Source: Clostridia bacterium
GTDB taxonomy: Bacteria; Bacillota; Clostridia; Oscillospirales; SIG627
Direction: 5' to 3'
Assembly: GCA_017520825.1 (NCBI GenBank)
Contig: JAFXEX010000023.1
Coordinates: forward strand, 1 to 64,000
Length of the DNA stretch: 64,000 nt
Made by a program: the position numbers and the translations under genes. The notes under the pieces were generated by a model that was not told where the DNA came from, did no database searches, and saw nothing but the letters and a program-made list of their open reading frames with translations. Of this stretch, positions 18,222-32,204 are shown piece by piece; positions within the stretch are counted from its first letter, which is position 1; each line of letters starts with the position of its first letter.

Positions 18222-18258
18222 AAAAGCACAAACACCTCGCTGTTTGCGAGGTGTTTGT
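18222..18258 (-). terminator. terminator of the hydrogenase operon
   Basis: On the minus strand a 13-bp stem, ACAAACACCTCGC/GCGAGGTGTTTGT, surrounds a 5-nt loop and is followed by GTGCTTTTTAC. It lies just after hydA and before the tcdA promoter. Confidence 0.9.
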
Positions 18259-18273
18259 ATTTGGAAAATATAA

Positions 18274-20010
18274 TTACATTTTCTTTCTGGGAACATAGCT
18301 TGTATGAAGGTCGTGATGAGCCTTATGACCACCAAAGCCGTCGTAGTACTCTGAGTAAAGAGTCTTAACAACGGGAGACTCGTGTGACTTTCTGATAGCC
18401 ATTGAAGCGTCCTGGTCATAAAGAGCCTTTGCACGAACTGCCTTAAGGTCAACTGTGTCGCGAACGGACTGAGGCTGGATAGGCTGACCACCACCGTTTA
18501 CACAACCACCGGGACATCCCATTATTTCAACGAACGTCCAATCAGCAGTACCACTTGCAATTCTGTCCATAACAACCTTAGCAGCTGCTGCACCACTTGC
18601 AACGGCAACCTTGATATCGAGACCTGCTATATTGAGTGAAGCCTGCTTGAGACCGTCTGTTCCACGAACTGCAGTAAACTCAATATCTGCGTTGTCCTTA
18701 CCTGTGAGCCAGTCGTTTGCCGTACGGAGAGCTGCTTCCATAACACCACCGGTAGCACCGAAAATAACGGCTGCACCAGTATCTTCACCAAGAGGAGAAT
18801 CAAATTCTTCATCGGGAAGAACTGTGAACTTAATACCTGCACGATCGATCATTCTGCCAAGCTCTCTTGTGGTGATTGCGATATCAACGTCGGGAACTCC
18901 GGCTGCGCTCTGATCCTCTCTGCCTATCTCAAACTTTTTAGCTGTACAAGGCATTACTGATACAGATACGATATCCTTGGGATCGATGCCCATCTTCTGT
19001 GCGTAGTAAGTCTTAATTACTGCACCTGCCATCTGTTGAGGAGATTTGCAAGTTGAAAGATGTGAGAGATATTCAGGATAGTAGTACTCAGCGAACTTAA
19101 CCCAACCGGGTGAACATGAAGTAATCATGGGAAGAACTCCACCGTTCTTAACTCTGTCAATAAGCTCGTTTGCTTCTTCTACGATTGTAAGGTCGGCAGC
19201 AAAGTCGGTATCAAATACCTTGTCAAAGCCGAGTCTTCTGAGAGCTGCAACCATTTTGCCCTCTACGTTTGTACCGATGGGCATACCAAAGCACTCACCG
19301 AGTGTTGCACGAACAGAAGGAGCTGTCTGTACAACAACGTGCTTTGTGGGATCAGCAAGAGCTGCCCAAACCTTATCAGTATCATCCTTTTCGGTAAGAG
19401 CGCCGGTAGGACAAACTGCAGTACACTGACCACAAGAAATACATGAGGTAGTGTTGAGCTTAACGTCAAAGGGATTACCGATGTTTGTGTCGATACCTCT
19501 GTCGTTAGCGCCGATGATTGATACGTACTGTTCTTCACAGACAGCAACACAACGACGACAGAGAATACACTTGTTGTTATCACGAACAAGGTGAGGAGCT
19601 GATTCATCAATCTCATACTCACGCTTGTAGCCGCCGAAAGCGTTCTCGTCTACGCCATACTCGTGGCAAAGCTTCTGAAGCTCACAGTTAGTAGAGCGCT
19701 TGCAAGAAAGACACTTCTTGTCATGAGTTGAAAGAATAAGCTCAAGAGTTGTCTTACGTGCTTTCTGAATTTTTTCTGTGTTTGTCTGTATTTCCATACC
19801 TTCAGCTACGGGATATACGCAAGCAGTAACAAGACCACGCGCGCCGGTAGCTTCAACTACGCATATACGGCAAGCACCTATTTCATTTCTATCCTTCATG
19901 AAGCAAAGTGTGGGGATTTCTACACCTGCAGCACGTGCTGCTTCAAGAATTGTTGAGCCCTTGGGCACGCTGACAGCAATGCCATTTACTTTACAATTAA
20001 TCATTTCCAT
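18274..20010 (-). CDS. hydA: [FeFe]-hydrogenase catalytic subunit of a bifurcating complex
   Basis: A 578-residue HydA/HndD-type subunit that reduces protons to H2. Domains in order: N-terminal [2Fe-2S] ferredoxin (GACRICVVEA), a His-Cys [4Fe-4S] segment (THDKKCLSCKRSTNCELQKLC), and two [4Fe-4S] clusters (CILCRRCVAVC and CISCGQCTAVCP, to about residue 210). The H-cluster domain follows (TSCSPGW, MPCTAKKFE, MGCPGGCVNGGGQP), and the C-terminal small-subunit helix is last. The L1 motif has Ser where the textbook TSCCPxW has a second Cys, a variant I recall from HndD-type homologues. With HydB and HydC it should couple NADH and reduced ferredoxin to H2. No maturase genes (hydEFG) are in the window. 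Confidence 0.95.
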   Translation of the reverse strand: MEMINCKVNGIAVSVPKGSTILEAARAAGVEIPTLCFMKDRNEIGACRICVVEATGARGLVTACVYPVAEGMEIQTNTEKIQKARKTTLELILSTHDKKCLSCKRSTNCELQKLCHEYGVDENAFGGYKREYEIDESAPHLVRDNNKCILCRRCVAVCEEQYVSIIGANDRGIDTNIGNPFDVKLNTTSCISCGQCTAVCPTGALTEKDDTDKVWAALADPTKHVVVQTAPSVRATLGECFGMPIGTNVEGKMVAALRRLGFDKVFDTDFAADLTIVEEANELIDRVKNGGVLPMITSCSPGWVKFAEYYYPEYLSHLSTCKSPQQMAGAVIKTYYAQKMGIDPKDIVSVSVMPCTAKKFEIGREDQSAAGVPDVDIAITTRELGRMIDRAGIKFTVLPDEEFDSPLGEDTGAAVIFGATGGVMEAALRTANDWLTGKDNADIEFTAVRGTDGLKQASLNIAGLDIKVAVASGAAAAKVVMDRIASGTADWTFVEIMGCPGGCVNGGGQPIQPQSVRDTVDLKAVRAKALYDQDASMAIRKSHESPVVKTLYSEYYDGFGGHKAHHDLHTSYVPRKKM

Positions 20011-20028: not shown

Positions 20029-21819
20029 TTATCTTTTAATAATAGCCTTAAATGCACAATTGTCGATACAAGCGCCACACTTGATACACTTATCAGTGTC
20101 AATAACGTGGGGAACCTTAACGCTTCCTGAAATTGCGTTAACAGGACAGTTGCGCATACACTTTGTACAGCCCTTGCACTTTTCAGGCTCAATGTAGAAG
20201 GTAAGAAGATCCTTACATACGCCTGCAGGACACTTCTTGTCTACAACGTGAGCAACGTATTCGTCTCTGAAGAACTTAAGTGTTGAGAGTACGGGGTTGG
20301 GAGCTGTCTGACCAAGACCGCAAAGAGAGTTAGCCTTGATGTAGTTACAAAGCTCTTCAAGCTTATCAATATCCTCAAGAGTACCGTTGCCCGAAGTAAT
20401 CTTTTCAAGCATTTCAAGAAGTCTCTTTGTACCAACTCTACAAGGTGTACACTTACCACATGATTCGTCAACGGTAAATTCAAGGAAGAATTTAGCCATA
20501 TCAACCATACAAGTGTCTTCGTCCATAACGATAAGACCACCTGAACCCATCATACAGCCCATTGCTACAAGGTTATCGTAGTCAACTTCTGTATCAATAA
20601 GGCTTGCAGGGATACATCCACCTGAAGGTCCACCCGTCTGAGCAGCCTTGAACTTCTTACCGTTGGGAACACCACCACCGATTTCATCAATTATTTCACG
20701 GAGAGTAGTACCCATAGGAATTTCTACAAGACCTGTGTTTGTAATCTTACCACCAAGAGCAAATACCTTTGTACCTTTGGACTTTTCAGTACCCATTGAA
20801 GCAAACCACTCAGCGCCCTTAAGAATAATCTGAGGGATATTAGCAAAGGTTTCAACGTTGTTTTCAACTGTGGGAGAACCGTAGAGACCCTTAACTGCAG
20901 GATACGGAGGACGGGGACGAGGCTCACCTCTGTTACCTTCGATGGAGGTCATAAGAGCCGTTTCCTCACCACAAACGAATGCGCCTGCGCCAAGACGGAT
21001 TTCCATATCGAAATCAAAGCCTGATCCGAAGATGTCCTTACCGAGAAGTCCGTATTCTCTTGCCTGGTCAATAGCTATCTGGAGACGTCTAACTGCAATG
21101 GGGTACTCTGCACGAACGTATACGTAACCCTTTGTTGCACCAATAGCGTAACCACATATAGCCATAGCTTCAATGATTGAGTGGGGGTCACCTTCAAGAA
21201 CCGAACGGTCCATAAATGCACCGGGGTCGCCCTCGTCAGCGTTACAAACAACGTATTTCTGAGGAGCCTTGTTAGGTGCTGTAAGAGACCACTTTCTTCC
21301 TGTGGGGAATCCTCCGCCTCCTCTTCCACGAAGACCGGAATCGGTAACAACCTGAATTACCTGCTCAGGTGTGTATTCTGTAAGACACTTTCCAAGAGCC
21401 TGGTAACCGTCCATTGCGATATACTCGTCAATCTGCTCGGGGTCGATAACACCACAGTTACGAAGAGCAACTCTGATTTGCTTCTTGTAGAAATTGGTTT
21501 CTTCAAGGGATTTAGCCTTGATAACATCTTCATCTACATCCTTATGTACAAGTCTGTCAACGGGACGTCCCTTAAGAAGATGCTCTTCAACAATTTCTTC
21601 AACGTCATCTATTTTAACGTTGCAATAGAATGTACCTTCGGGGTACACGATCATTACAGGGCCCAGTGCGCAAAGACCGAAACATCCTGTACGAACTACT
21701 TTTACTTCGTCTTGAAGACCTTTTGCAGCAATTTCAAGCTCAAGCTTGTCGCCGATTTTCATACTTCCTGAAGAAGTACAACCGGTACCGCCACAAATAA
21801 GTACGTGTGTGCGTATCAT
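20029..21819 (-). CDS. hydB: bifurcating hydrogenase HydB/HndC subunit (NuoF-like flavoprotein)
   Basis: The 596-residue NADH- and FMN-binding subunit of the electron-bifurcating hydrogenase. An N-terminal [2Fe-2S] thioredoxin-like domain (CGGTGCTSSGS, TGCFGLCALGP) is followed by the NuoF core with glycine-rich GLRGRGGGGFPTGRKW and the NADH loop EGNRGEPRPRPPYPA. An SLBB segment and the [4Fe-4S] helix SCGKCTPCRVGTKRL come next. A C-terminal two-cluster ferredoxin ends the protein (CKGCTKCMRNCP, CIKCGACIDNC). This architecture is specific to multimeric HydABC/HndABCD enzymes. It lies 18 bp before hydA and 18 bp after the hndB-like gene. Confidence 0.95.
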   Translation of the reverse strand: MIRTHVLICGGTGCTSSGSMKIGDKLELEIAAKGLQDEVKVVRTGCFGLCALGPVMIVYPEGTFYCNVKIDDVEEIVEEHLLKGRPVDRLVHKDVDEDVIKAKSLEETNFYKKQIRVALRNCGVIDPEQIDEYIAMDGYQALGKCLTEYTPEQVIQVVTDSGLRGRGGGGFPTGRKWSLTAPNKAPQKYVVCNADEGDPGAFMDRSVLEGDPHSIIEAMAICGYAIGATKGYVYVRAEYPIAVRRLQIAIDQAREYGLLGKDIFGSGFDFDMEIRLGAGAFVCGEETALMTSIEGNRGEPRPRPPYPAVKGLYGSPTVENNVETFANIPQIILKGAEWFASMGTEKSKGTKVFALGGKITNTGLVEIPMGTTLREIIDEIGGGVPNGKKFKAAQTGGPSGGCIPASLIDTEVDYDNLVAMGCMMGSGGLIVMDEDTCMVDMAKFFLEFTVDESCGKCTPCRVGTKRLLEMLEKITSGNGTLEDIDKLEELCNYIKANSLCGLGQTAPNPVLSTLKFFRDEYVAHVVDKKCPAGVCKDLLTFYIEPEKCKGCTKCMRNCPVNAISGSVKVPHVIDTDKCIKCGACIDNCAFKAIIKR

Positions 21820-21837: not shown

Positions 21838-22206
21838 TTATTTTGTTGCAGCGCCGATTGTATACTCAGCTACAACCTTGCCGTTCTTAATATGGTCCTC
21901 GATAACCTTTGCCACTTTTTCAGGAGTCATATTTACATATGTCACCTTTTCGTCACCGTTGTATACTTCAACAACGGGCTCATACTGGCAAATACCGATA
22001 CAACCTGTCTGAGAAACAGTTGCCTTATTTGATAAACCTGCATTTGCAACGCCTTCAACAAAAGCGTTAAGAACAGGTCTTGCACCTGCAGAAATTCCAC
22101 AAGTTGCCATGCCTACAACTATTCGCATAGAAGCATTGTTCTCACGAATATTTACCTTGCTCTGCATTCTTTCTCTGATTGCAGCAAGTTCAGCTAATGA
22201 TTTCAT
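21838..22206 (-). CDS. HndB-like [2Fe-2S] thioredoxin-fold ferredoxin
   Basis: A 122-residue protein with the thioredoxin-like [2Fe-2S] fold. Cluster cysteines are in VGMATCGISAGARP and SQTGCIGICQYEP. It corresponds to HndB of four-subunit NADP/NAD-linked hydrogenases and to the N-terminal domain of HydB, here as a separate extra copy. It probably shuttles electrons within the hydrogenase. It is placed between an ATPase gene (36 bp upstream) and hydB (18 bp downstream) in the operon. Confidence 0.87.
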   Translation of the reverse strand: MKSLAELAAIRERMQSKVNIRENNASMRIVVGMATCGISAGARPVLNAFVEGVANAGLSNKATVSQTGCIGICQYEPVVEVYNGDEKVTYVNMTPEKVAKVIEDHIKNGKVVAEYTIGAATK

Positions 22207-22242: not shown

Positions 22243-22785
22243 TTAATTGTATTGCTCTTCAAGATAGTCCCTTATCCACATCAGAACCTCTGGTGAGTTC
22301 AGGGGTACGTCGCCTAAAAGCTCTCTCATCTCAGCAGTAGAAAGAAACACTTTTTTGCCGTCAAATTCGTGCGAGAACACAAAATCAATTTCGGGCGACC
22401 CTTGAATTAAGGTTGAAACGGTAGAAATAACGTCGCCAAGTGGCAAACAGTCAATATGCTTCTTTTTGAAAACTGCTGTGACCGTTGTACCAGAGGTGTC
22501 CCCCTCGTAAGACTTGGTTTTTGACACTATTTCAAACCTACCGCCTGTTTGCTCTGCAGCAAGCTTATAAAACGGTATTCCGAGTCCAACCTTTCTGGTT
22601 GTTCTCGTTGTGCAGAACGGGTCGGTTACACGGGCAACCATTTCGGATGGCATACCACAACCGTCGTCGGCAATTATTACCTTTAAATCGTCTTCGTTTT
22701 CTTCAAGCTTAATAATGACGTTAGCAGCACCGGCTTTAACTGAATTCTTCGCAATATCAAGAATGTTGAGTGACAGTTCCTTCAT
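22243..22785 (-). CDS. histidine-kinase-like ATPase domain protein
   Basis: A stand-alone 180-residue GHKL ATPase domain. The N box is in NILDIAKNSVKAGAANV, the G1 box is IADDGCGMPSE, and a G2-like segment is TRKVGLGIPFY. It lacks a phosphoacceptor domain and any membrane segment. The C-terminal 50 residues (GSPEIDFVFSHEFDGKKV onward) are not part of the ATPase fold I know. Such proteins recur inside clostridial HydABC operons, and their function is not established. Its start overlaps the end of the PHP gene by 4 bp, so the two are translationally coupled. A regulatory or accessory role is inferred. Confidence 0.75.
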   Translation of the reverse strand: MKELSLNILDIAKNSVKAGAANVIIKLEENEDDLKVIIADDGCGMPSEMVARVTDPFCTTRTTRKVGLGIPFYKLAAEQTGGRFEIVSKTKSYEGDTSGTTVTAVFKKKHIDCLPLGDVISTVSTLIQGSPEIDFVFSHEFDGKKVFLSTAEMRELLGDVPLNSPEVLMWIRDYLEEQYN

Positions 22786-23522
22786 TTAATATCACCTCTC
22801 AATATTGAGAAAATTTCAGCACGGACACTTGCAGCGTCAGAAAGGTCCGACAAAATATCAAAATGATTTACCATCTCGTTTATATCCCACAAATAATGCG
22901 CATCGCTACTTGAAACGTAAAGCCTATCAGCTATTGCAGGAAACCGTGAAATATAGGAGTCTATATTTGACCGATTGGCAAATTCATATACTGTGAAATC
23001 GGATTCAGGTACTGTACCGAATACTCCTACGATACTGTTTGAATCTTTATCAATGTGTGCAGGATAAGCTATTCCACCATATTTTTTTGCAACGCCGTGT
23101 ATATCGTCAATAGATATATCCACTGCATTGATCAACAGATACTTTTCCTCACCTACAACTCGGTCACAGTCATCCATATATACCTGTCTACCGAAAATTG
23201 TTGAATCGTTTTCAATAAGCGTTCTTTTTGTACGGAGAAGCTCATTGAAATCCATTGCCCCTTCAAGAGAATCAAACAGAACCACCGAATGTATATCCTC
23301 TGCCGTGGTTATTTCTGCGCCTGCAATTGGTATCAGTGAATAATTCGAGCAGGCAGAAAAAAACGCAGGACAGTTTCCACAGGTATTATGATCGGTAAGG
23401 GCTACTATATTAAGTCCCTTTATTGAAGCCATACCTGCAATATTATTCGGGGTCATATCGTCGTCACCACAAGGTGACAGGCAAGAATGAATATGTAGGT
23501 CGTAAAACGCTTTACTCGGCAT
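22782..23522 (-). CDS. PHP-domain metal-dependent phosphoesterase
   Basis: A 246-residue PHP-family protein. The N-terminal metal motif is DLHIHSCLSPCGDD, followed by ALTDHNTCGN, then AGAEITT, YPAHIDKDSNS and the late SSDAHYL. These are the His/Asp/Glu ligands of the trinuclear PHP site. The family includes nucleoside 3',5'-bisphosphate phosphatases and RNases, and the substrate here is unknown. It overlaps both neighbours in the hydrogenase operon (11 bp with the DRTGG gene upstream, 4 bp with the ATPase downstream). A PHP gene in the hydrogenase cluster is also known from Thermotoga. Confidence 0.8.
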   Translation of the reverse strand: MPSKAFYDLHIHSCLSPCGDDDMTPNNIAGMASIKGLNIVALTDHNTCGNCPAFFSACSNYSLIPIAGAEITTAEDIHSVVLFDSLEGAMDFNELLRTKRTLIENDSTIFGRQVYMDDCDRVVGEEKYLLINAVDISIDDIHGVAKKYGGIAYPAHIDKDSNSIVGVFGTVPESDFTVYEFANRSNIDSYISRFPAIADRLYVSSSDAHYLWDINEMVNHFDILSDLSDAASVRAEIFSILRGDIK

Positions 23523-23847
23523 AAAGCACCTTACCTATCATATAAGAAATTTCAAACGATGATTTTACCGTTCTGTAAAGATTTATGTTCTGAGCTTTTG
23601 CTTTTTCTATAACGTCTGCAGATATTTCAGCATTTTCGGAAAAAATCACACAAGAAGCGTCGGCAAGAGCAGCTACTGCTATAACGTTTACGTTATTCAT
23701 AATAGTTACCCATGCGAAATCAGCCTCAAGCCTTGTCATTACCCAACTGAGCAAATCACCGGTATAAGCTCCGACAACGTCTCTTGCGTCGTCTGAAACC
23801 TGAATTGGCTCTAATTGGAGATAAGCTGACAAATCACGTAATTTCAT
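23512..23847 (-). CDS. DRTGG-like domain protein, hydrogenase operon
   Basis: A 111-residue single-domain protein of the DRTGG type (family usually annotated as HPr-kinase-like or serine kinase). Features are MKLRDLSAYLQLEPIQ, VGAYTGDLLSWVMTR, and the C-terminal EKAKAQNINLYRTVKSSFE. I set the start at the ATG at 23847, which has AGGGAGGAT just upstream. The frame opens further out, but that part is antisense-like sequence inside the sensory hydrogenase gene. A second DRTGG gene lies at 25558. DRTGG domains are thought to bind nucleotides or other ligands, but no kinase site is present. Confidence 0.68.
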   Translation of the reverse strand: MKLRDLSAYLQLEPIQVSDDARDVVGAYTGDLLSWVMTRLEADFAWVTIMNNVNVIAVAALADASCVIFSENAEISADVIEKAKAQNINLYRTVKSSFEISYMIGKVLYAE

Positions 23848-23848
23848 C

Positions 23849-25117
23849 TTAATCCTCCCTGCTGAATTTAGGAAGCTTATGTAAAGGACACTCGTCCATA
23901 GAAACGTTCTTGCATACAACGTCCTCTGCAAATGCATGACAGGTTGGAGCGCCACACGCACCACAATCAATCTGAGGAAGTAATTTACTCACTTCTTCAA
24001 TTTGTGCCATCACTGCAATTGACAAATTCGTATCGTTTGAAAATGAACCGATGCTCCTTTGTCCAAGTGGGGTATGTATTATAAGATTTTCAGGAACGCC
24101 GTCTTTTGTAAGCTCCTTAGCCTTGGACGTTCTCGTTACGGGAAGGTAACGGCGAAGTCCTTGGAGCCTTGCTCTTGCAATAAATGGATTTGCAACAGTC
24201 ATAACACCACCGACACAACCACCGGGGCAGCTGTTCAATTCCACGAATTCAAGAGTAGGAAGCGCATTGTTTTCAATCTGGTCTAAAACCTTTATTACGT
24301 TTTCAATGCCGTCAGCAGCAAGATATTTATCGTTAAATATTGCAGTTGACTCACCACCAGACGTAGCCCAGCTAAGTCCGACAACTCCAGAGGAAGAAGT
24401 ATTTTGTGGTTGCTCTCCCCTTTTCATTTTCGATATCATCATGAAGTATATTTCCTTCATAGACAAAACGCAATCGATTATAGGCTGTCGGTTTTCGGGA
24501 TGGTTTTTAACGTAACTGACCTTTGCGGGACATGGAGATATAAACGCTATGCCTATATCATCAGCCGTAAGGTCGGGATGCTCTTGTATCACCAGCTCCT
24601 TAGCGTTTATAGCCGCAACCTCCATAGGAGACATCAACGGCATAACGTGTGAGCTAAGTGATGGAAATCTTAAACTTATAAGCCTGAGAATAACGGGACA
24701 GGCAGAACTGATAACAGGACGCGGAAGATTACTTTGTTTAAGAAAGCGCCTTGTATATTCAGTAACTATTTCTGCCGCTCTCGAAACCTCGTAAACATAG
24801 TCAAATCCTATATCGTAAAGCCCCTGAACCACATAATCCACGTCATCAAGATTGTCAAACTGTCCGTAAAGCGTCGGCGCAGGAAGAGCTACCTTGAATT
24901 TGTATTTTTTAAGTGCTTCAAAGGGATCGTAAATGGATTTCTTCGCCTTGTTACGACAAACACGAATACACTGACCACAGTCAATACATCTATCAGAATT
25001 TATTGTGGCTTTTCCATCTTTTATGCGTATTGCTTCTGTTGGACAGTAATTCAAGCAATGCGTGCAACCGTGGCATTTGTCTGCTACAAGGGTTACAGAA
25101 TGTAAATACTTGTCCAC
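23849..25117 (-). CDS. sensory-type [FeFe]-hydrogenase-like protein (HydS-like)
   Basis: A 422-residue protein with an N-terminal two-cluster ferredoxin (CHGCTHCLNYCP, CIDCGQCIRVC; residues 14-60), then a reduced hydrogenase H-domain. L1 is SSACPVI (Ala where catalytic enzymes have the proton-relay Cys), L2 is SPCPAK, and L3 is NSCPGGCVGGVM. All four H-cluster cysteines appear retained. The C-terminus (about 375-415) adds a Cys cluster, CGACGAPTCHAF plus later Cys, of the RnfB-type FeS domain. No PAS domain is present. It resembles the group C/D putative H2 sensors, such as the one in the Thermotoga HydABC region, and probably reports H2 or redox state rather than making H2. Confidence 0.82.
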   Translation of the reverse strand: MDKYLHSVTLVADKCHGCTHCLNYCPTEAIRIKDGKATINSDRCIDCGQCIRVCRNKAKKSIYDPFEALKKYKFKVALPAPTLYGQFDNLDDVDYVVQGLYDIGFDYVYEVSRAAEIVTEYTRRFLKQSNLPRPVISSACPVILRLISLRFPSLSSHVMPLMSPMEVAAINAKELVIQEHPDLTADDIGIAFISPCPAKVSYVKNHPENRQPIIDCVLSMKEIYFMMISKMKRGEQPQNTSSSGVVGLSWATSGGESTAIFNDKYLAADGIENVIKVLDQIENNALPTLEFVELNSCPGGCVGGVMTVANPFIARARLQGLRRYLPVTRTSKAKELTKDGVPENLIIHTPLGQRSIGSFSNDTNLSIAVMAQIEEVSKLLPQIDCGACGAPTCHAFAEDVVCKNVSMDECPLHKLPKFSRED

Positions 25118-25133
25118 AAAATCACCTGCCAGT

Positions 25134-25556
25134 TTATGTATTTATAACTAACGTTACCTTCGTGCCTACACCAACAGTTGATTCCAGATTAAATGAATCG
25201 GTATACCTCTTCATATTTGGAATTCCCATACCTGCACCAAAGCCGAGAGATCGCACGGCATCGGCAGCAGTAGAATACCCCTCGCTCATAGCAAGCTCAA
25301 TATTCTCTATGCCCGGTCCGTGGTCTTCAAGAACTATTTTAATACAGTCCTCGGATATTTCAACGTCGGCGACTCCGCCACCTGCGTGAATAACCATATT
25401 TATCTCGCCTTCGTACATGGCAATAGACACTCGTCTTACGGTCTCGGGAGAATAACCAAGAAGCCTGAGCTTCTTCTTCACCTCTGCTGAAGCCTCTCCG
25501 GCAGAAGTAAAGTCATCTCCGTCAACGTCAAAATGCAGCTTTAAAATCTCACCCAT
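25134..25556 (-). CDS. anti-sigma-factor-like ATPase (RsbW/SpoIIAB fold)
   Basis: A 140-residue GHKL ATPase with the N box RVSIAMYEGEINMVIHAGGG, a G1 box VLEDHGPGIENIE, a G2 box SLGFGAGMGIPNMKRYTD, and no histidine-phosphotransfer domain. This is the shape of RsbW/SpoIIAB serine kinases that bind sigma or anti-anti-sigma factors. None of those partners is encoded nearby. It is directly followed by the sensory hydrogenase gene (16 bp) and preceded by a DRTGG gene (1 bp), so a redox-signalling role is inferred. Confidence 0.75.
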   Translation of the reverse strand: MGEILKLHFDVDGDDFTSAGEASAEVKKKLRLLGYSPETVRRVSIAMYEGEINMVIHAGGGVADVEISEDCIKIVLEDHGPGIENIELAMSEGYSTAADAVRSLGFGAGMGIPNMKRYTDSFNLESTVGVGTKVTLVINT

Positions 25557-25557
25557 A

Positions 25558-25902
25558 CTACTTAACCTGTCTCAAACCGGAAGAATAAAGAATTCCACAA
25601 GCGTCAAACATACGCTCGCCGGTTTTCATTACAACGATGTTCTTGGATTCAGCCAGGGCAAGAATTTCGTCGGTAGGAACCTTGTTGCGAACAAAGACAA
25701 CACATACCATATCCATCATTTCTGCCGTTCTGATAACCTGCATATTTACAAGACCGGTTAAAAGAACTGCCTGGTCCTTAACGTATGCAAGAACGTCGCT
25801 CATCATATCGCTTCCACAAGCAGATTTAACGTCGTTGTCAAGATTTTCTTTGCACGTCAGTACTTCTGCATTAAGTAATTTCTGAATTTCGGAAATTTTC
25901 AC
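25558..25902 (-). CDS. DRTGG-like domain protein, second copy
   Basis: A 114-residue single-domain protein (MKISEIQKLLNAEVLT, then VKDQAVLLTGLVNMQVIRTAEMMDM, ending RMFDACGILYSSGL). The layout matches the DRTGG-like protein at 23512, with low sequence identity between the two. It is the second gene of the operon, 27 bp after hydC. It probably acts with the neighbouring ATPase and sensory hydrogenase; no catalytic motif is visible. Confidence 0.65.
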   Translation of the reverse strand: MKISEIQKLLNAEVLTCKENLDNDVKSACGSDMMSDVLAYVKDQAVLLTGLVNMQVIRTAEMMDMVCVVFVRNKVPTDEILALAESKNIVVMKTGERMFDACGILYSSGLRQVK

Positions 25903-25929: not shown

Positions 25930-26427
25930 TTATGCTCCGTATTTTGCAAGAATTCCTGCAACATCGTCAGGTCCGATTCTTCCATATACGTCCTCGTTAA
26001 CTGTAAATACAGGTGCAAGTCCACAAGCTCCTATACAACGGCACGCTGTAAGAGAGAACTTACCGTCGGGAGTACACTCCTCTGCGGCAATACCAAGCTT
26101 TTCAGAAAGCTTATTGAAAATATCTCCAGAGCCCTTAACGTAGCATGCTGTACCAAGGCAAACGGAAATATTATATTCTCCCTTGGGAGAAAGCGAGAAC
26201 TGGGCGTAAAAGGTAGAAACGCCGTACACCTTTTCAAGCGGCACGTCCATTCCTTCCGCAATCATTGACTGTACTTCAAGAGGTAAGTATCCGTAAATAC
26301 CCTGTGCCTCCTGCATTACTGCCATAAGACGGCTGCTATCGTGCTTGTTTGCGTCTATAACAGCCTTGAGTTGCTTCTCCTGTTCAGGAGTTCCCTTGAA
26401 CGGGAGTGTGCTGATTTTCTTTTGCAT
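25930..26427 (-). CDS. hydC: bifurcating hydrogenase HydC/HndA subunit (NuoE-like)
   Basis: The 165-residue NuoE-type [2Fe-2S] subunit of the bifurcating hydrogenase. An N-terminal helical bundle (residues about 15-80, with EAQGIYGYLP and VYGVSTFYAQF) is followed by the thioredoxin-like [2Fe-2S] domain. Its cysteines are in VCLGTACYVKG and TACRCIGACGLAP. It is the first gene of the hydrogenase operon, behind a good sigma-A promoter, a 5' leader hairpin and GGAGG. It is separated from hydB and hydA by the seven-gene accessory block, which is unusual compared with compact hydABC operons. Confidence 0.94.
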   Translation of the reverse strand: MQKKISTLPFKGTPEQEKQLKAVIDANKHDSSRLMAVMQEAQGIYGYLPLEVQSMIAEGMDVPLEKVYGVSTFYAQFSLSPKGEYNISVCLGTACYVKGSGDIFNKLSEKLGIAAEECTPDGKFSLTACRCIGACGLAPVFTVNEDVYGRIGPDDVAGILAKYGA

Positions 26428-26508: not shown

Positions 26509-26537
26509 ATTATACACCAAAGATTTCGATTTTTCAA
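26509..26537 (-). promoter_or_regulatory. sigma-A promoter of the hydrogenase operon
   Basis: On the minus strand TTGAAA (26532-26537) and TATAAT (26509-26514) have a 17-bp spacer. The leader before the hydC start is about 75 nt. Confidence 0.82.
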
Positions 26538-26588
26538 GTCGTTTGTTAAATTTTAATCAATATATTTGACGAATTTTTTTGTTTTCAA

Positions 26589-27072: not shown

Positions 27073-27720
27073 TTAGTCGTTTGATACTATTTTCACCTTG
27101 CAGCCATTACCGATTCCACAAGCATTTGCATCGTCGGTGTCAAGATGCATTTCAAGAGCAAACTTATCGCTGACACGAACCTGAACGTCGTAAAGAGTAG
27201 TTCTCTTTCCGTCGCCCTTAGCCTGAACAGCAACGTAGTCGCCGTCGTTTACACCAAACTTCTTGCCGTCCTCAAGACTCATATGTATATGACGGTTGGC
27301 AAGAATACATCCCTCTTTGAGAGTAACAAGACCTTTAGGTCCAACGATGGTAACGGGAGCTGAGCCTGCTATCTTTCCCGATTCACGCACGGGAGGCTTT
27401 ACCTTTAAGGTGAATGAATCTGTTCTTGATATTTCTACCTGAGATTCCTTTCTCACAGGTCCAAGGACACGAACGCCCTCAATTGCTTTAAGTGACGGAC
27501 CTATAAGAGTAAGCTGCTCCTTGCATGCGTACTGACCGGGCTGAGAGAGGTCCTTGAGCTTTGTGAGCTCATAGCCCTTGCCGAAAAGAATCTCAAGATG
27601 CTCCTGAGAAAGATGTATATGTCTGTTAGATACGCCTACCGGCACAAGCGCTTCCTCGCTCTGACAGGCAGAGATAACTTTGCTTACAATTTCAGTAATT
27701 ACTTTTGCATCGTATTCCAT
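27073..27720 (-). CDS. pduL: phosphate propanoyltransferase PduL
   Basis: PduL converts propionyl-CoA and phosphate to propionyl-phosphate, recycling CoA inside the microcompartment. The 215-residue protein has the two zinc-binding HxH repeats, SNRHIHLS (about residue 29) and ANRHIHMS (about 143), plus a C-terminal MHLDTDDANACG segment. The first ~20 residues form an amphipathic helix (EYDAKVITEIVSKVISACQ) separated from the fold, a likely encapsulation peptide. It is the last gene of the microcompartment operon, 17 bp after the aldehyde dehydrogenase. No acyl kinase is in the window. Confidence 0.95.
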   Translation of the reverse strand: MEYDAKVITEIVSKVISACQSEEALVPVGVSNRHIHLSQEHLEILFGKGYELTKLKDLSQPGQYACKEQLTLIGPSLKAIEGVRVLGPVRKESQVEISRTDSFTLKVKPPVRESGKIAGSAPVTIVGPKGLVTLKEGCILANRHIHMSLEDGKKFGVNDGDYVAVQAKGDGKRTTLYDVQVRVSDKFALEMHLDTDDANACGIGNGCKVKIVSND

Positions 27721-27736
27721 TAGTCCTGTCTCCTTA

Positions 27737-29185
27737 TCAGATTATTCTGAAGCTATCTGCAAGCACACATCTACGCTGTCTTGTAAAGCTTCTTGCCGAG
27801 GTAATACCCTCACCTGTAGGACCTGCAATAGTAAAGGTTGCGTGTCCTTCACCACCAAAGCCTATACCTGCGTATGAAGGCGCATTCTTAACGAAAATGG
27901 TTGTTTCAACAGCCTTTGCAAATTTTGAAAGGTTATCAATATTCTTTGAGTGCATATGAGCAGTATGACGGCAACCGTGCTCAGCCTTAACGGCAAGCTC
28001 TACTGCCTGATCGATATTATCAACTCTGACGATAGGAAGAATGGGCATCATAAGCTCGTGCTGTACAAAATCGTGTTCAAAAGGAACTTCGCATATAATA
28101 CATCTTATATCCGAGCTTACCTCTATACCAATCATCTTAAGGATAACGTCAGCGTTTCTTCCAACACAGTCACGGTTAACAACCTTAGAGGTCTTTCCTG
28201 CCTTGTTGGTCTTTTCCTGCAAAACTATTTTAGCAAGAGCGTCAGCCTGCTCGCGTGTTATGAGGTAAGAACCTGCTTTTTTCATACCAGAAATAAGCTC
28301 ATCTGCAATATTTCTGAAAGCGAATACTTCCTTTTCTGCAATACAAGGAAGGTTGTTATCAAAGGTACAACCGTCGATAATATCCTTTGCAGCCTTTGCA
28401 ATATCCGCAGTATCGTCAACGATTACGGGAGGGTTTCCTGCGCCTGCTCCGATTGCCTTTTTACCTGATGAAAGAACGGCTTTAACAACGCCGGGACCAC
28501 CTGTACAAACAAGAAGCTTTATAAGAGGATGAGACTGCATAATAGCAGCAGAATCAAGAGTAGGCTTGTCCATAGAGCAGACAAGAACGTCGGGACCACC
28601 TGCTGCCTTGGAAGCTCTGTTTACAAGGTCAACTGCGTAGTTTGAGGTAGCAATAGCATTGGGATGAGGGTTGAAAACAACGCCGTTACCGGCAGCTATC
28701 ATACCAATTGAGTTACAAATTACGGTTTCACTGGGGTTGGTGCTGGGAGTAATTGCTCCTACAACTCCAAAGGGGGCCATTTCAATAAGAGTCAAGCCGT
28801 CGTCACCCGTCTTAGCAGTGGAAACGATATCCTCTGTTCCGGGTGTTTTATCTGCAACGAGAATATGCTTGAGTCTCTTGTGCTCAACTCGTCCCATTCC
28901 CGTTTCAGCAACACCAATTTCAGCCATAGTCTGAGCCTCAGCTCTTGTAAGACGGCGAATCTCGGTAATAATCTTTTCTCTTTTTTCAACCGACATATCT
29001 CTTACGGATTTATAGCCTTTATTTGCAGCTTCAATGGCTTCGTTCATGTCGCTGTAAACGCCTATAAGCTTTCTTCCGTTATACTGTGTTGAATCCCAGG
29101 TAACTTTTGATGCGTTGCCGGTCTGCATTGCGCTGATTACCTTTTCAACAATGGTCTTGATTTCATTTTCTGTCATAAGAGCCAT
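27737..29185 (-). CDS. pduP: CoA-acylating aldehyde dehydrogenase (PduP/EutE type)
   Basis: Oxidises propionaldehyde with NAD+ and CoA to propionyl-CoA within the microcompartment. The 482-residue protein has an N-terminal amphipathic helix (MTENEIKTIVEKVISAMQTG) that resembles PduP-type encapsulation peptides. The ALDH fold follows, with the catalytic Cys in TFDNNLPCIAEKE (about residue 269) and the nucleotide-loop region GAGAGNPPVIVDD. The C-terminus contains the EGITSARSFTRQRRC segment typical of this subfamily. It is followed by pduL and preceded by the DeoR regulator. Confidence 0.94.
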   Translation of the reverse strand: MALMTENEIKTIVEKVISAMQTGNASKVTWDSTQYNGRKLIGVYSDMNEAIEAANKGYKSVRDMSVEKREKIITEIRRLTRAEAQTMAEIGVAETGMGRVEHKRLKHILVADKTPGTEDIVSTAKTGDDGLTLIEMAPFGVVGAITPSTNPSETVICNSIGMIAAGNGVVFNPHPNAIATSNYAVDLVNRASKAAGGPDVLVCSMDKPTLDSAAIMQSHPLIKLLVCTGGPGVVKAVLSSGKKAIGAGAGNPPVIVDDTADIAKAAKDIIDGCTFDNNLPCIAEKEVFAFRNIADELISGMKKAGSYLITREQADALAKIVLQEKTNKAGKTSKVVNRDCVGRNADVILKMIGIEVSSDIRCIICEVPFEHDFVQHELMMPILPIVRVDNIDQAVELAVKAEHGCRHTAHMHSKNIDNLSKFAKAVETTIFVKNAPSYAGIGFGGEGHATFTIAGPTGEGITSARSFTRQRRCVLADSFRII

Positions 29186-29227
29186 AACAAAATCCTTTCT
29201 TATCTACTCAAAACAATGTTAAAGAGC

Positions 29228-29986
29228 TTAGTATACAAGCTCTATATTCTTCTTTTCTAACTCTCTGATACATTCGTCAGAGGGCTTAACGTCGGTTACG
29301 ATTATGTCTATATCTTCAAGGTCACAAATCTTTACAAATGATATTTTATCAAACTTCGTACTGTCCACTGCAAGAATTACCTTATTTGCATTCTTTATAA
29401 AGCACTTCTTCAAATCTGCATTGTTTTCTCGGGTGTCGGTAATTCCCTTCTCCAAATCCAAGCCTTTACACGACATTATCGCGTAGTCAGTATGATAATT
29501 AGCTATGGCAGAGGTTGCCGAAGCACTCAAAAAGGACATAGAATCCTGTCTGTACGTGCCACCTGTTGAAATAACACGCCAATCATTGTTAGCAGGAAGG
29601 TCTAAAAGAATTTCAACGGAGTTAGTAATTAACGTTAAATTATGCTTGTTGAAAATACTCTTAACGGTAAACAACGCCGTAGTGCTTGCGTCCAGTAGCA
29701 TACTGTCGCCATCCTGAATCAGATTACCGATTTTTTCTGCAATATACTTTTTACCACTTACGTTCGTGAGCTTTCTGACCGTGTACGGAAGTTCAACGGT
29801 CATATTGTCACTCTTAACGGCACCACCGTAAGTTTTCTTTGCAAAGCCCTCTATTTCCAGCTTTTCAAGGTCGCGTCTGATAGTCTCCTCAGTTACTGAA
29901 TAGAACGCTGCCAAATCACTTACGATGACCTTTCCGTCAATCATAAGCTTAGATAAAATTTCATTTTTTCTTTCAATAGGTAGCAT
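29228..29986 (-). CDS. DeoR-family transcriptional regulator
   Basis: A 252-residue DeoR/GlpR-type regulator. The N-terminal helix-turn-helix (IERKNEILSKLMIDGKVIV, then VTEETIRRDLEKLE) is followed by the hinge KKTYGGAV and the C-terminal sugar-phosphate-binding DeoR domain (NLTLITNSVEIL, and the Asp of DASTTALFT). It lies inside the microcompartment operon between the shell gene for BMC-T and the aldehyde dehydrogenase. Regulation of this operon by a deoxysugar phosphate is plausible but inferred. Whether it is activator or repressor cannot be told. Confidence 0.88.
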   Translation of the reverse strand: MLPIERKNEILSKLMIDGKVIVSDLAAFYSVTEETIRRDLEKLEIEGFAKKTYGGAVKSDNMTVELPYTVRKLTNVSGKKYIAEKIGNLIQDGDSMLLDASTTALFTVKSIFNKHNLTLITNSVEILLDLPANNDWRVISTGGTYRQDSMSFLSASATSAIANYHTDYAIMSCKGLDLEKGITDTRENNADLKKCFIKNANKVILAVDSTKFDKISFVKICDLEDIDIIVTDVKPSDECIRELEKKNIELVY

Positions 29987-29996
29987 TTATATCCCC

Positions 29997-30545
29997 TTAA
30001 AGAATATTTTTCCAAAGCTTTTCATCAGGGCCTGCAATAACGGAGCTATCAAGGAACATTCCGTTTCCACCAGCGCCTGCAATCGCTTTTTCTATTGCTG
30101 CAGAAACTGCAGAAACCTCACCTGTAAGAAGTAAGTAAGATTTTCCACACATACCACGAGCAAGTCTCAATTCTATCAAATCCACTATTGCAGTTTTTGC
30201 AGCAGTATCAGCAGCTACTATAGCAGAAGCAACAGAATAGGTTTCAAGAATACCAAGTGCCTTGGGATTTTCAATTGCATTAGTGCCGTAAATTGCACCA
30301 AACAAAGAATCGTGAGGATTTCCTAAAACGAAAGAGTCGATCAAATGCTCGGTAGCATGATTTGAAGCAGCGTCAACTGCAGCACGCACGGCACTTATAT
30401 CACCTTCGATAAGTACAAAATATTTTCCGGGGCAAACCGTTTCTGCCCGGATTATATCGACCTCTGCAGTCTTTACCATAATATCTGCAGCTGTTATGCC
30501 GGAAGAAACCGTTTTAAATTCAACGAGTCCTATTGCTTTTCTCAT
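29997..30545 (-). CDS. pduT: tandem-BMC shell protein (PduT-like, Fe-S type)
   Basis: A 182-residue tandem BMC (BMC-T) protein, two fused BMC domains (residues about 3-85 and 95-175) that form pseudohexameric trimers. A Cys lies at position 38, in ETVCPGKY, exactly where PduT carries the residue that binds a [4Fe-4S] cluster at the trimer centre. It is probably the electron conduit across the shell, partnered with PduS, whose stop codon overlaps its start (TAATG). It is the only BMC-T gene here; no PduB-type trimer is present. Confidence 0.92.
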   Translation of the reverse strand: MRKAIGLVEFKTVSSGITAADIMVKTAEVDIIRAETVCPGKYFVLIEGDISAVRAAVDAASNHATEHLIDSFVLGNPHDSLFGAIYGTNAIENPKALGILETYSVASAIVAADTAAKTAIVDLIELRLARGMCGKSYLLLTGEVSAVSAAIEKAIAGAGGNGMFLDSSVIAGPDEKLWKNIL

Positions 30546-31888
30546 TAACGATTACCTCCTTCTGATACGATTAAAATATATTTATTATTGATTTCTTTAA
30601 CGATTCCGTCAATGGACGAATGGATATTTACTCCGAGCTTTCCTTCTGAAGCAACGGCTATAACCTGACCTACTGTAACCTTGTCGTCTACCTTTACACA
30701 AGGCTCGGCAGGTGCGCCGATGTGCTGTGAAAGCATTATCTTCACCTTGCTTGGCTTATACTGGAGATCAGAGATTGGAGCCGAGACGTCATATTTGCTC
30801 AATCCAAGTCTTGAACGGAGACGTGCAAGGGGAACTTTTCTGAACGCTCTTGCTTTAGGAACGGGAACGGGTTTAATTCCCTTGGGAGGAGAAACTCCTG
30901 CAGCCCTCATTCCCTTTTTGAACTCGTCAATGAGCAGCTTTGGTGAAAGCCCTTGCTGACATGAGTACATTTCGCAAAGACCACAACCACTGCAAAACAT
31001 AGCATCGAGATAAGGCTTAACCTTTACGGTGTCGCTATTTGACACAACTCTCATAAATTCGTGGGGTTCAATGGGATGACCAAGTAAAAATCTTGGACAA
31101 AGGTCGGTACAATATCTGCACTGACAACAGGATGCCATTGTCCTCTTTAAATCTATAGTCGGCTTTACCCTTTTACGCATAACGACGTAATGATTCTGTG
31201 GAAGAACAATAACAGCGTTAGTTGTTTTTGTAACGGGCTCGTTGGGAGATCCAAGACGTCCCATCATAGGACCACCGAGCACGTACGCCGGGTCGTTTAC
31301 AGTAATGCCTCCACTAAGCTCAATTACCTCGGAAAGCTTTGTACCCACGGGCACAAGGAAGGTCTGAGGATTTTTTACCTCACCCGTAACGGTTACGAAC
31401 TTGTTAACCACGGGTTGCTTATCATTTACTGCCTTGTAAACGTTGTACATAGTTTCAACGTTAAAAACAGTTACTCCCACAGATGAAGGAATAGCACCGG
31501 GGGCTACCACTCTTCCTGTGGTTTCGTAAATCAGCACGAATTCATCTCCTGCAGGATAAACCTCGTCAAGAGTGCTGACGGTTATATTTTCAAATGAGTC
31601 AAGCTCGACCTCAATCGCTTCAATTGCCTTTTTATAAGCTTTTTTCAACGCGATAATAACGTTGCTTGCTCCTATTGTTTTCGATACCAAATCAAGCGCC
31701 CACATAATTTCATAGGCGTTTTTTTCAAGTAGCCTTCTGTGAAGTCTTAAGAGAGGCTCACATTCGGCACAGTTCAAAATTACTGTATCAACGGTTTTAT
31801 CAAGTTTAGCGTAAGAAGGAAATCCGGCACCACCTGCGCCGACAATTCCTGCTTCACGCATAATTTGCTTTAATTCGTCAAAATTCAT
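30545..31888 (-). CDS. pduS: PduS-like RnfC-family flavoprotein
   Basis: A 447-residue RnfC-like flavin/Fe-S protein. The N-terminal glycine-rich segment GAGGAGFPSYAKL and AECEPLL form the NADH/FMN-binding fold. An SLBB domain sits near residue 170. Two [4Fe-4S] motifs follow (CCQCRYCTDLCPRF and CSGCGLCEMYSC), then a C-terminal lipoyl-like domain ending IVKEINNKYIL. In B12-dependent Pdu compartments PduS reduces cobalamin. Here the dehydratase needs no B12, so it more likely links NAD(H) turnover to PduT or delivers electrons to the activase. It overlaps the BMC-P gene by 4 bp. Confidence 0.9.
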   Translation of the reverse strand: MNFDELKQIMREAGIVGAGGAGFPSYAKLDKTVDTVILNCAECEPLLRLHRRLLEKNAYEIMWALDLVSKTIGASNVIIALKKAYKKAIEAIEVELDSFENITVSTLDEVYPAGDEFVLIYETTGRVVAPGAIPSSVGVTVFNVETMYNVYKAVNDKQPVVNKFVTVTGEVKNPQTFLVPVGTKLSEVIELSGGITVNDPAYVLGGPMMGRLGSPNEPVTKTTNAVIVLPQNHYVVMRKRVKPTIDLKRTMASCCQCRYCTDLCPRFLLGHPIEPHEFMRVVSNSDTVKVKPYLDAMFCSGCGLCEMYSCQQGLSPKLLIDEFKKGMRAAGVSPPKGIKPVPVPKARAFRKVPLARLRSRLGLSKYDVSAPISDLQYKPSKVKIMLSQHIGAPAEPCVKVDDKVTVGQVIAVASEGKLGVNIHSSIDGIVKEINNKYILIVSEGGNR

Positions 31889-32166
31889 TTCTTAGGTACT
31901 CCCGACAAACCTACACCGTCGTCAACTATTCCGACAATTGCCGCATCAATGGGAGAAGTCTCCATACCGCAACCAATTCTCGCCGCACTGCCTAACGCTA
32001 CAAGAACAATCTCGCCGATACCTGCGCCGATATTGTCAACTGCAACTATTCTATTTGTCGTATCGCCAATTACTTCGAGAGGCTCTACAAGCATAAATTT
32101 GTTACCTACAAGATTTTCATTCTTGCGTGTTGATACAATGCTTCCGATTACTTTTCCGACAATCAT
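31885..32166 (-). CDS. BMC-P pentameric vertex shell protein (EutN/CcmL family)
   Basis: A 93-residue EutN/CcmL-family protein whose pentamers cap the shell vertices. It opens with the family signature MIVGKVIGSIVSTRKNENLVG and has the conserved AVDNIGAGIGEIVLVALGSAAR core. I placed the start at the ATG at 32166. The frame could open at a TTG 18 bp upstream, but that codon overlaps the AAAGGA ribosome site. It is the only BMC-P gene in the locus. Confidence 0.93.
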   Translation of the reverse strand: MIVGKVIGSIVSTRKNENLVGNKFMLVEPLEVIGDTTNRIVAVDNIGAGIGEIVLVALGSAARIGCGMETSPIDAAIVGIVDDGVGLSGVPKK

Positions 32167-32204
32167 TTGATATTTTCCTTTCAATCAGGTTATTGGGGAT
32201 TGGC

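Follow-up and report, generated by a model that had tools for sequence, protein, structure and literature searches.

A conserved five-gene cassette around a putative sensory [FeFe] hydrogenase and its link to HydE, a GHKL ATPase of bifurcating-hydrogenase operons

The operon of the bifurcating [FeFe] hydrogenase HydABC is split by seven genes, between hydC and hydB, in a gut-type Clostridia bacterium (assembly GCA_017520825.1, 1.5 Mb, completeness 84%), which raises the question of what these genes are and why they lie there. The stretch analysed, referred to here as the window, comprises 64,000 nucleotides of contig JAFXEX010000023.1 (positions 1 to 64,000, forward strand). A preliminary description placed two DRTGG proteins, two kinase-like ATPases without a phosphoacceptor domain, a HydS-like hydrogenase, a PHP phosphoesterase and a ferredoxin-like protein in a single block at 22,243–25,902 and likened them to a partner-switching relay that reads H2 or redox state. 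All seven genes exist on the minus strand, but the range encloses six of them, the gene for the ferredoxin-like protein lying outside it at 21,838–22,206. The block consists of two units, a five-gene cassette (DRTGG1-kinase-HydS-DRTGG2-PHP) and the bifurcating-hydrogenase operon hydC-hydE-hydD-hydB-hydA, to which HydE and the ferredoxin-like HydD belong; the single seven-gene block thus does not hold. The module is real, conserved and probably regulatory. That it works as a single regulatory system whose output is HydE appears fairly likely, and we tentatively favour a redox- or H2-sensing cassette that is set inside the operon of its target and acts through the state of the DRTGG proteins and HydE.

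Results

The five-gene cassette is conserved

HydS was searched for in 293 genomes of the class, of which 142 were positive (full or near-full length matches of at least 260 bits, the next score being 132). Up to 9 kb on either side of 140 HydS matches, together with the window itself, gave 141 loci, in which open reading frames (ORFs) were assigned by profiles made from the window proteins. The order DRTGG1-kinase-HydS-DRTGG2-PHP, on one strand, is intact in 122 of the 141 loci, and the cassette is therefore not a product of chance. A DRTGG protein is present in 137 of these loci and the kinase in 134, while about half of the 19 loci without the intact order are, on a reading of the locus tables, cut by contig ends. 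The HydE counts from the same profile assignment include cross-matches and are left aside. In a second set of 80 named genome loci, found via the kinase alone, the five-gene order is intact in 66; most of the other 14 are truncated at contig ends or contain a DRTGG-2 that scores under the 60-bit limit. No fusions among the cassette genes were found in the 141 loci or the 80 named loci.

HydS is lacking in 151 of the 293 genomes, and 80 of those were searched for PHP and DRTGG-1. None contains a cassette-type PHP (the best partial match scored 66 bits over about 92 residues), and the DRTGG-1 profile matched in four: G288 (177 bits, truncated where its contig stops), G057 (with DRTGG-2 at the contig start) and two weak cases. 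As a separate observation, a lone DRTGG protein directly follows hydC-hydB-hydA in a genome that lacks the cassette (locus L188, 8536–8880), an independent DRTGG–hydrogenase neighbourhood.

When extra neighbours were clustered none was general; SPOR, pyrK-pyrD, PRK/uridine-kinase-like, GNAT and DUF6062 proteins occur in subsets. The pyrK-pyrD-type genes follow the cassette in one family (about 15 loci, including L063, L092 and L114).

The cassette and the hyd operon are separable

The order hydC-hydE-hydD-hydB-hydA is that of Acetobacterium woodii, where HydE is annotated as a sensory transduction histidine kinase (PMC10472528). The likeness is one of locus number and annotation, and the available text of that paper draws no link from HydE and HydD to HydS or the cassette. 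The same order was found in relatives, whereas in the window the cassette interrupts it; since it is known in A. woodii, the seven genes are read as the five-gene cassette plus HydE and HydD. The cassette lies directly before hydC-hydE-hydD-hydB-hydA in 44 of the 141 loci (more such loci are cut), between hydC and hydE in 12, the window among them, and divergent from the operon in four. In 31 loci the cassette is present without any hyd-operon gene within the stretch.

HydE follows the cassette

Associations of HydE, HydA and PP2C with HydS were examined in 41 HydS-positive genomes, picked for an odd context or because no hydABC was visible next to the cassette, and in 39 HydS-lacking genomes, the first of the list with G288 excluded for its cut cassette. 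HydE is present in 40/41 of the former and 4/39 of the latter (Fisher 6e-17). The group A6 HydA exceeds its cut-off in 40/41 and 23/39, respectively, and given the hydrogenase the association of HydE with HydS remains (Fisher 3e-11). The genomes are kin, so the Fisher values overstate independence and the counts represent non-independent events. HydE tracks the cassette and not the hydrogenase. Of the four genomes with HydE and no HydS, G014 and G036 look real, G028 is weak, and in G057 the contig starts in or at DRTGG-2.

The association extends to other members of the phylum. In a sample of 119 genomes PHP was found in 42, including that of the window, the other 41 being outside its class. 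In each of these 41 HydE lies downstream of PHP on its strand; 40 have HydS, which in 39 lies just upstream with a DRTGG-sized gap. By comparison, among 18 of the 77 PHP-negative genomes (same phylum), HydS was found in one and HydE in two. In two genomes of one genus (G307 and G385; L336 764–2038 and L337 794–2068) PHP and HydE form a single 425-amino-acid ORF, upstream of which lies DRTGG1-kinase-HydS-DRTGG2.

These data bear on the simplest alternative, operon hitch-hiking, in which the genes are unrelated and are transcribed together as a legacy of their history. Bacterial operons often carry neighbours along, and the position of the cassette before pyrK-pyrD-type genes in one family fits such a history. 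However, the genes co-occur even in genomes that have them away from hydABC or apart from each other, which contradicts hitch-hiking, as do the fixed order, the replication outside the class and the PHP–HydE fusion; we regard it as very improbable. The conservation analysis across loci proposed in the preliminary description thus revealed co-conservation beyond hitch-hiking.

A second alternative is that HydS, HydE and their partners sense nothing and instead help to assemble or chaperone the Fe-S/flavin bifurcating enzymes. In favour of this, HydE adjoins HydABC, hydCB and Rnf, and most of its predicted structure is like that of MutL/gyrase-type ATP clamps; against it, most of the 23 HydS-lacking genomes with an A6 hydrogenase have no HydE, so that the enzyme is evidently made without it, and a hydrogenase active site and a kinase would be odd in a chaperone set. 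Assembly or repair is considered quite unlikely.

The HydE link shifts to Rnf operons

Together with HydE, the cassette also turns up at Rnf operons, both standing ahead of rnfC-D-G-E-A genes in L145, L150 and L160. In seven loci hydC-HydE-ferredoxin-hydB is followed by rnf genes. In the three of these viewed in detail (L135, L155 and L158) no hydA intervenes between hydB and the rnf genes; their hydC-HydE-ferredoxin-hydB is perhaps a HydBC unit that works without a hydrogenase subunit. A lone HydS adjoins rnf-type genes in L165 and L167, while in G181, G231 and G276 DRTGG2-PHP-HydE precedes an RnfC-like gene with HydS elsewhere, the kinase being seen with them in two, where the stretch extends far enough. 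Among 30 HydE loci retrieved, 20 have HydE between hydC and the ferredoxin-like gene or hydB, six before an RnfC-like gene and four directly after PHP with other genes behind; the RnfC calls are partly by analogy, those in L281, L282, L292 and L298 having been assigned by analogy with L145 from weak hydB-profile scores (21–43 bits). In L143 a molybdenum hydroxylase follows. Judged from these neighbourhoods, the common feature of the targets would be that they are NAD/ferredoxin or related redox enzymes.

HydS resembles group D hydrogenases

The window HydS comprises N-terminal [4Fe-4S] motifs, an H domain and a C-terminal FeS motif (PF04060, 4.9e-12), and no PAS domain was matched in the domain scan. 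The H-cluster cysteines C140, C196, C297 and C301 are invariant in all 142 HydS sequences; of the C-terminal [4Fe-4S] motif C385, C388 and C393 are found in 142/142 and C410 in 140/142. Column 139, which corresponds to the proton-path cysteine C299 of CpI, is alanine in 116/142 with no cysteine among the five commonest residues. The methionine positions round the diiron site are likewise replaced, column 194 being serine or threonine in 141/142 and column 295 methionine in just 6/142. The mapping to CpI numbering was made in this analysis; such replacements are described in PMC8163306. Based on the cysteine set, the pocket replacements, the C-terminal motif and the lack of a PAS match, HydS appears to be of the group D type (M2e), and it is plausible that it reads H2 or redox state.

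The kinase and HydE are ATPases of different types

The preliminary description of two kinase-like ATPases holds in that only HATPase domains were matched in the two proteins (140 and 180 amino acids), with no match to a DHp or histidine phosphoacceptor domain in either. They differ in type, the kinase being SpoIIAB/RsbT-like and HydE a GHKL ATPase of the MutL/histidine-kinase type. A two-component histidine kinase reading is not borne out, as no phosphoacceptor domain was matched alongside either ATPase domain. The best solved relatives of the kinase are anti-sigma F factors. Its residues E49, N53, D78, G80 and G82 are conserved at 1.0 (134 sequences), and in an alignment to SpoIIAB E49, N53 and H57 occupy the N-box Glu, Asn and His positions, the Glu and Asn being catalytic in SpoIIAB. 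The predicted structure of HydE (predicted local distance difference test score, pLDDT, 90) is like MutL/gyrase-type GHKL ATPases over residues 1–174 (Z 14.1, root-mean-square deviation (rmsd) 3.2, 152 residues aligned).

DRTGG and PHP proteins

DRTGG-1 exceeds the Pfam cut-off (30.1 vs 25.2 bits). DRTGG-2 on its own falls below it (23.8 vs 25.2 bits) and is identified through its family: in the family alignments DRTGG was matched in 32/32 DRTGG-1 and 26/28 DRTGG-2 members, so that the earlier naming of two DRTGG proteins stands, for the second at family level. The predicted structure of DRTGG-1 (pLDDT 92) matches AF1212 (2ioj; Z 17.4, rmsd 1.7, 111 residues aligned), the CBS-DRTGG pyrophosphatase and the N-terminal domain of HPr kinase. 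Both families keep an Asp-x-x-Ser motif and a threonine at a strand end: D32, S35 and T49 of DRTGG-1 are conserved at 0.99 (138 sequences) and D31, S34 and T48 of DRTGG-2 at 1.0. The strand-end threonine is not kept in the generic DRTGG domains aligned at this motif. In PHP, D8, H10, H12, D44, H45, E70, H78, H156, D207 and H209 are conserved at 1.0 (130 sequences), all residues of the metal-ligand type. The catalytic residues of both the kinase and PHP are thus intact and invariant in the alignments.

The DRTGG and PHP proteins could also belong to a nucleotide-messenger system, with PHP making or destroying a small nucleotide, the DRTGG proteins binding it and the two GHKL ATPases responding, and with no DRTGG phosphorylation. 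The closest solved DRTGG structures include a nucleotide-regulated CBS-DRTGG pyrophosphatase, the closest solved PHP relatives act on nucleic acids or nucleotides, and the conserved DRTGG residues are placed as in ligand pockets, where a strand ends and where a helix begins. Speaking against a messenger, no recurrent nucleotide cyclase or synthetase was seen by eye near the cassette, and the kinase retains the SpoIIAB catalytic Glu/Asn pattern. This alternative is judged unlikely.

The cassette is not a classical partner switch

A classical partner switch requires a STAS antagonist and a PP2C phosphatase. Neither DRTGG family gave a STAS match, DRTGG being matched instead, and a STAS fold is absent from the fold matches of DRTGG-1, although this absence alone does not amount to a test. 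As to binding targets, neither a sigma factor nor another candidate was seen by eye as a recurrent neighbour. The PP2C that accompanies a different sensory-type hydrogenase is present in 11/41 HydS-positive vs 9/39 HydS-lacking genomes (Fisher 0.80). The partner-switching relay in its classical form is therefore not borne out, the module being without a STAS antagonist and without an associated PP2C. A complete partner switch that borrows the PP2C of group C3-type loci was likewise rejected, as this PP2C has no association with HydS. The window genome has one SpoIIE-domain ORF (846 amino acids), on a different contig. Two loci, L189 and L190, were collected afterwards and are outside the 141; in L190, from one genome, a SpoIIE-type PP2C (11053–12219) lies directly upstream of DRTGG-1 and HydE follows hydA.

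The likeness to the Rsb/SpoIIA switches lies in the SpoIIAB/RsbT-type GHKL kinase, which keeps its catalytic Glu and Asn; in contrast, the cassette has DRTGG and PHP in place of the STAS antagonist and PP2C. A non-STAS partner switch is conceivable but improbable; in it a gas-sensor hydrogenase would control a SpoIIAB-type kinase with DRTGG substrates and a PHP phosphatase, and the signal would gate electron bifurcation directly by way of HydE, an ATP-driven clamp or kinase encoded in the HydABC or Rnf operon.

Transcription of the hyd operon

Rex-like sites were searched for with what we take to be the Rex operator consensus, with up to 2 mismatches of 14. They occur upstream of hydC in 41/92 loci vs 1.2 expected and upstream of DRTGG-1 as first gene in 9/115 vs 0.7 expected; before inner genes they are near expectation (0–2 of 88–133). 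In many lineages, hyd expression is therefore probably tied to NADH/NAD by way of Rex, and the cassette would be left free to act at protein level.

These sites bear on the alternative that the cassette reports to a distant sigma factor or regulator that sets hyd or rnf expression. The SpoIIAB/RsbT-like kinase would suit such a role, and an AraC-type regulator adjoins the HydS gene of Thermoanaerobacter mathranii (PMC8163306). However, by eye, no transcription factor family recurs near the cassette among clusters found in at least 8 loci; the hyd operon often has a Rex-like site of its own, and HydE is located in the target operon, not next to a regulator. Transcriptional control is thus rather improbable, to about the same degree as an assembly role, and the absence of a recurrent transcription factor favours control at protein level, as in the sensing cassette that acts through HydE.

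Gene layout of the window

The ten genes from hydC to hydA form one minus-strand run (Table 1). The cassette begins 27 bp after hydC, and DRTGG-1, the kinase, HydS and DRTGG-2 are separated by 1, 16 and 1 bp; DRTGG-2 and PHP overlap by 11 and PHP and HydE by 4, with gaps of 36 bp between HydE and HydD and 18 bp between HydD and hydB. The genes named earlier are thus, as described, mostly overlapping or within 40 bp (gaps of 1–36 bp). The bifurcating hydrogenase is HydABC of group A6, HydA exceeding the curated cut-off with hydB and hydC alongside. The promoter-like and Rex-like sites before hydC and the terminator-like stem after hydA make a single transcript possible, and from these consensus matches the ten genes may be cotranscribed; the scan found 8 terminator-like sites vs 8.0 expected by chance.

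Table 1 Features of the hyd locus in the window.
Feature	Positions	Strand	Basis
hydC, NuoE-like subunit of bifurcating hydrogenase, target-enzyme gene	25930–26427	-	2Fe-2S_thioredx 1.2e-47
DRTGG-1, stand-alone DRTGG protein, 114 aa (amino acids), cassette gene 1	25558–25902	-	Pfam and fold match
SpoIIAB/RsbT-like GHKL kinase, 140 aa, cassette gene 2	25134–25556	-	spIIAB 4.7e-14, conserved residues
HydS, group-D-type putative sensory [FeFe] hydrogenase, 422 aa, cassette gene 3	23849–25117	-	domains, H-cluster Cys
DRTGG-2, stand-alone DRTGG protein, 111 aa, cassette gene 4	23512–23847	-	family-level DRTGG match
PHP-type metal phosphoesterase, 246 aa, cassette gene 5	22782–23522	-	ligand-type residues conserved
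HydE-like GHKL ATPase (HK2), 180 aa, proposed output arm	22243–22785	-	domain, fold, co-occurrence
HydD/HndB-like thioredoxin-fold [2Fe-2S] protein, 122 aa, hyd operon member	21838–22206	-	domain match
hydB, NuoF-like flavin/NADH subunit	20029–21819	-	domain match
hydA, group A6 NADH-dependent [FeFe] hydrogenase	18274–20010	-	NF040763, 885 bits vs cut-off 765
Promoter-like site TTGAAA-17-TATAAT, upstream of hydC	26509–26537	-	11/12 consensus positions; consensus match only
Rex-like operator just upstream of promoter-like site	26543–26560	-	2 mismatches of 14
Terminator-like 14-bp stem and T-run after hydA	18227–18259	-	longest stem listed

Upstream of the hyd operon, also on the minus strand, a set of ORFs at 27073–32184 resembles, by eye, a bacterial microcompartment locus, with PduL-like, aldehyde dehydrogenase, DeoR-type regulator, shell protein, PduS/RnfC-like and EutN-like ORFs.

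Discussion

That HydS lies beside kinases and HydABC is already published. Sensory hydrogenases have been noted upstream of bifurcating ones, often with a histidine or serine kinase between them (PMC3561251). A close described counterpart is TamHydS of T. mathranii (group D/M2e), which shares the N-terminal [4Fe-4S], the H domain, the C-terminal [4Fe-4S] and the lack of PAS (PMC8163306, PMC13104023), the proximity to a bifurcating hydrogenase and the same cysteine and methionine pocket replacements (PMC8163306); in contrast, DRTGG, PHP and the five-gene order are not described in the available text of these papers (PMC8163306, PMC13104023). The C-terminal cluster was found not to be reduced by H2, and identification of the partners was called critical for clarifying the signalling mechanism in 2026 (PMC13104023). 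Another likeness is Cthe_0335, a HydS near the bifurcating hydrogenase cluster Cthe_0338-0342 (PMC3561251, PMC3990059), in which Cthe_0339, annotated as a histidine kinase, fits the position of HydE (PMC3990059). Judged by numbering only, Cthe_0336-0337 may be DRTGG-2 and PHP. The group C3 phosphatase-linked hydrogenases similarly tie putative H2 sensing to an enzyme of protein phosphorylation, but they are linked to Ser/Thr phosphatases (PMC5037454), and the SpoIIE-type PP2C next to one such hydrogenase (L191) shows no association with the cassette. The open-access literature searched yielded no mention of the DRTGG pair, PHP, the fixed cassette order or the HydE link.

The fixed order, the strict co-occurrence, the intact catalytic residues and the PHP–HydE fusion lend good support to the earlier proposal of a conserved sensory-type module. 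In the mechanism proposed for it, H2 (or the ferredoxin/H2 balance) would be read at the H-cluster of HydS, a change in the shape of which would alter the activity of the neighbouring SpoIIAB/RsbT-like kinase. The kinase would then modify one or both DRTGG proteins, the likeliest sites being S35/T49 of DRTGG-1 and S34/T48 of DRTGG-2, and PHP would undo the modification; that the DRTGG proteins are phosphoacceptors is doubtful. The DRTGG state would be handed to HydE, a GHKL ATPase encoded in the target operon, which may in turn tune the NAD/ferredoxin enzyme (HydABC, or Rnf in some lineages) at protein level. The basis for this scheme is the observed gene order, co-occurrence, HydE link, target switching, catalytic residues and fusion, together with the predicted DRTGG and GHKL folds.

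Several points weigh against this reading. Some full-length loci truly lack genes, PHP in L084 and L107 and both DRTGG-2 and PHP in L046. G320 has HydS without PHP or HydE, and no cassette was detected in the HydE-bearing genomes G036 (a single contig), G014 and G301 or in G028 and G305, where HydE is weakly matched. The nearest solved relatives of PHP are nucleases and not protein phosphatases. Where the DRTGG motif has its serine, 3/4 of the aligned generic DRTGG domains have threonine, and the serine may thus be conserved for structural reasons. Inter-protein distance correlations (ten proteins, 66 loci) are just moderate: the highest partial correlations of cassette genes, DRTGG2–PHP (0.55) and DRTGG1–kinase (0.54), both concern gene neighbours, and that of HydE–HydS is low (0.16), for which reasons they were not used as evidence. 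Finally, every signalling step, the direction of control and the substrates are inferred.

Group D hydrogenases have been named sensors by analogy only. The constancy of the cassette, the presence of HydE even where it is unlinked and the PHP–HydE fusion provide a short ordered list of partners for this type of sensor, which organisms such as Thermoanaerobacter or C. thermocellum also have. A non-STAS switch, if real, would give stand-alone DRTGG proteins a role in signalling and HydE a function. If HydE does signal to HydABC or Rnf, the balance of H2, NADH and ferredoxin would be controlled at protein level beside Rex, and such control would concern fermenting gut and industrial bacteria.

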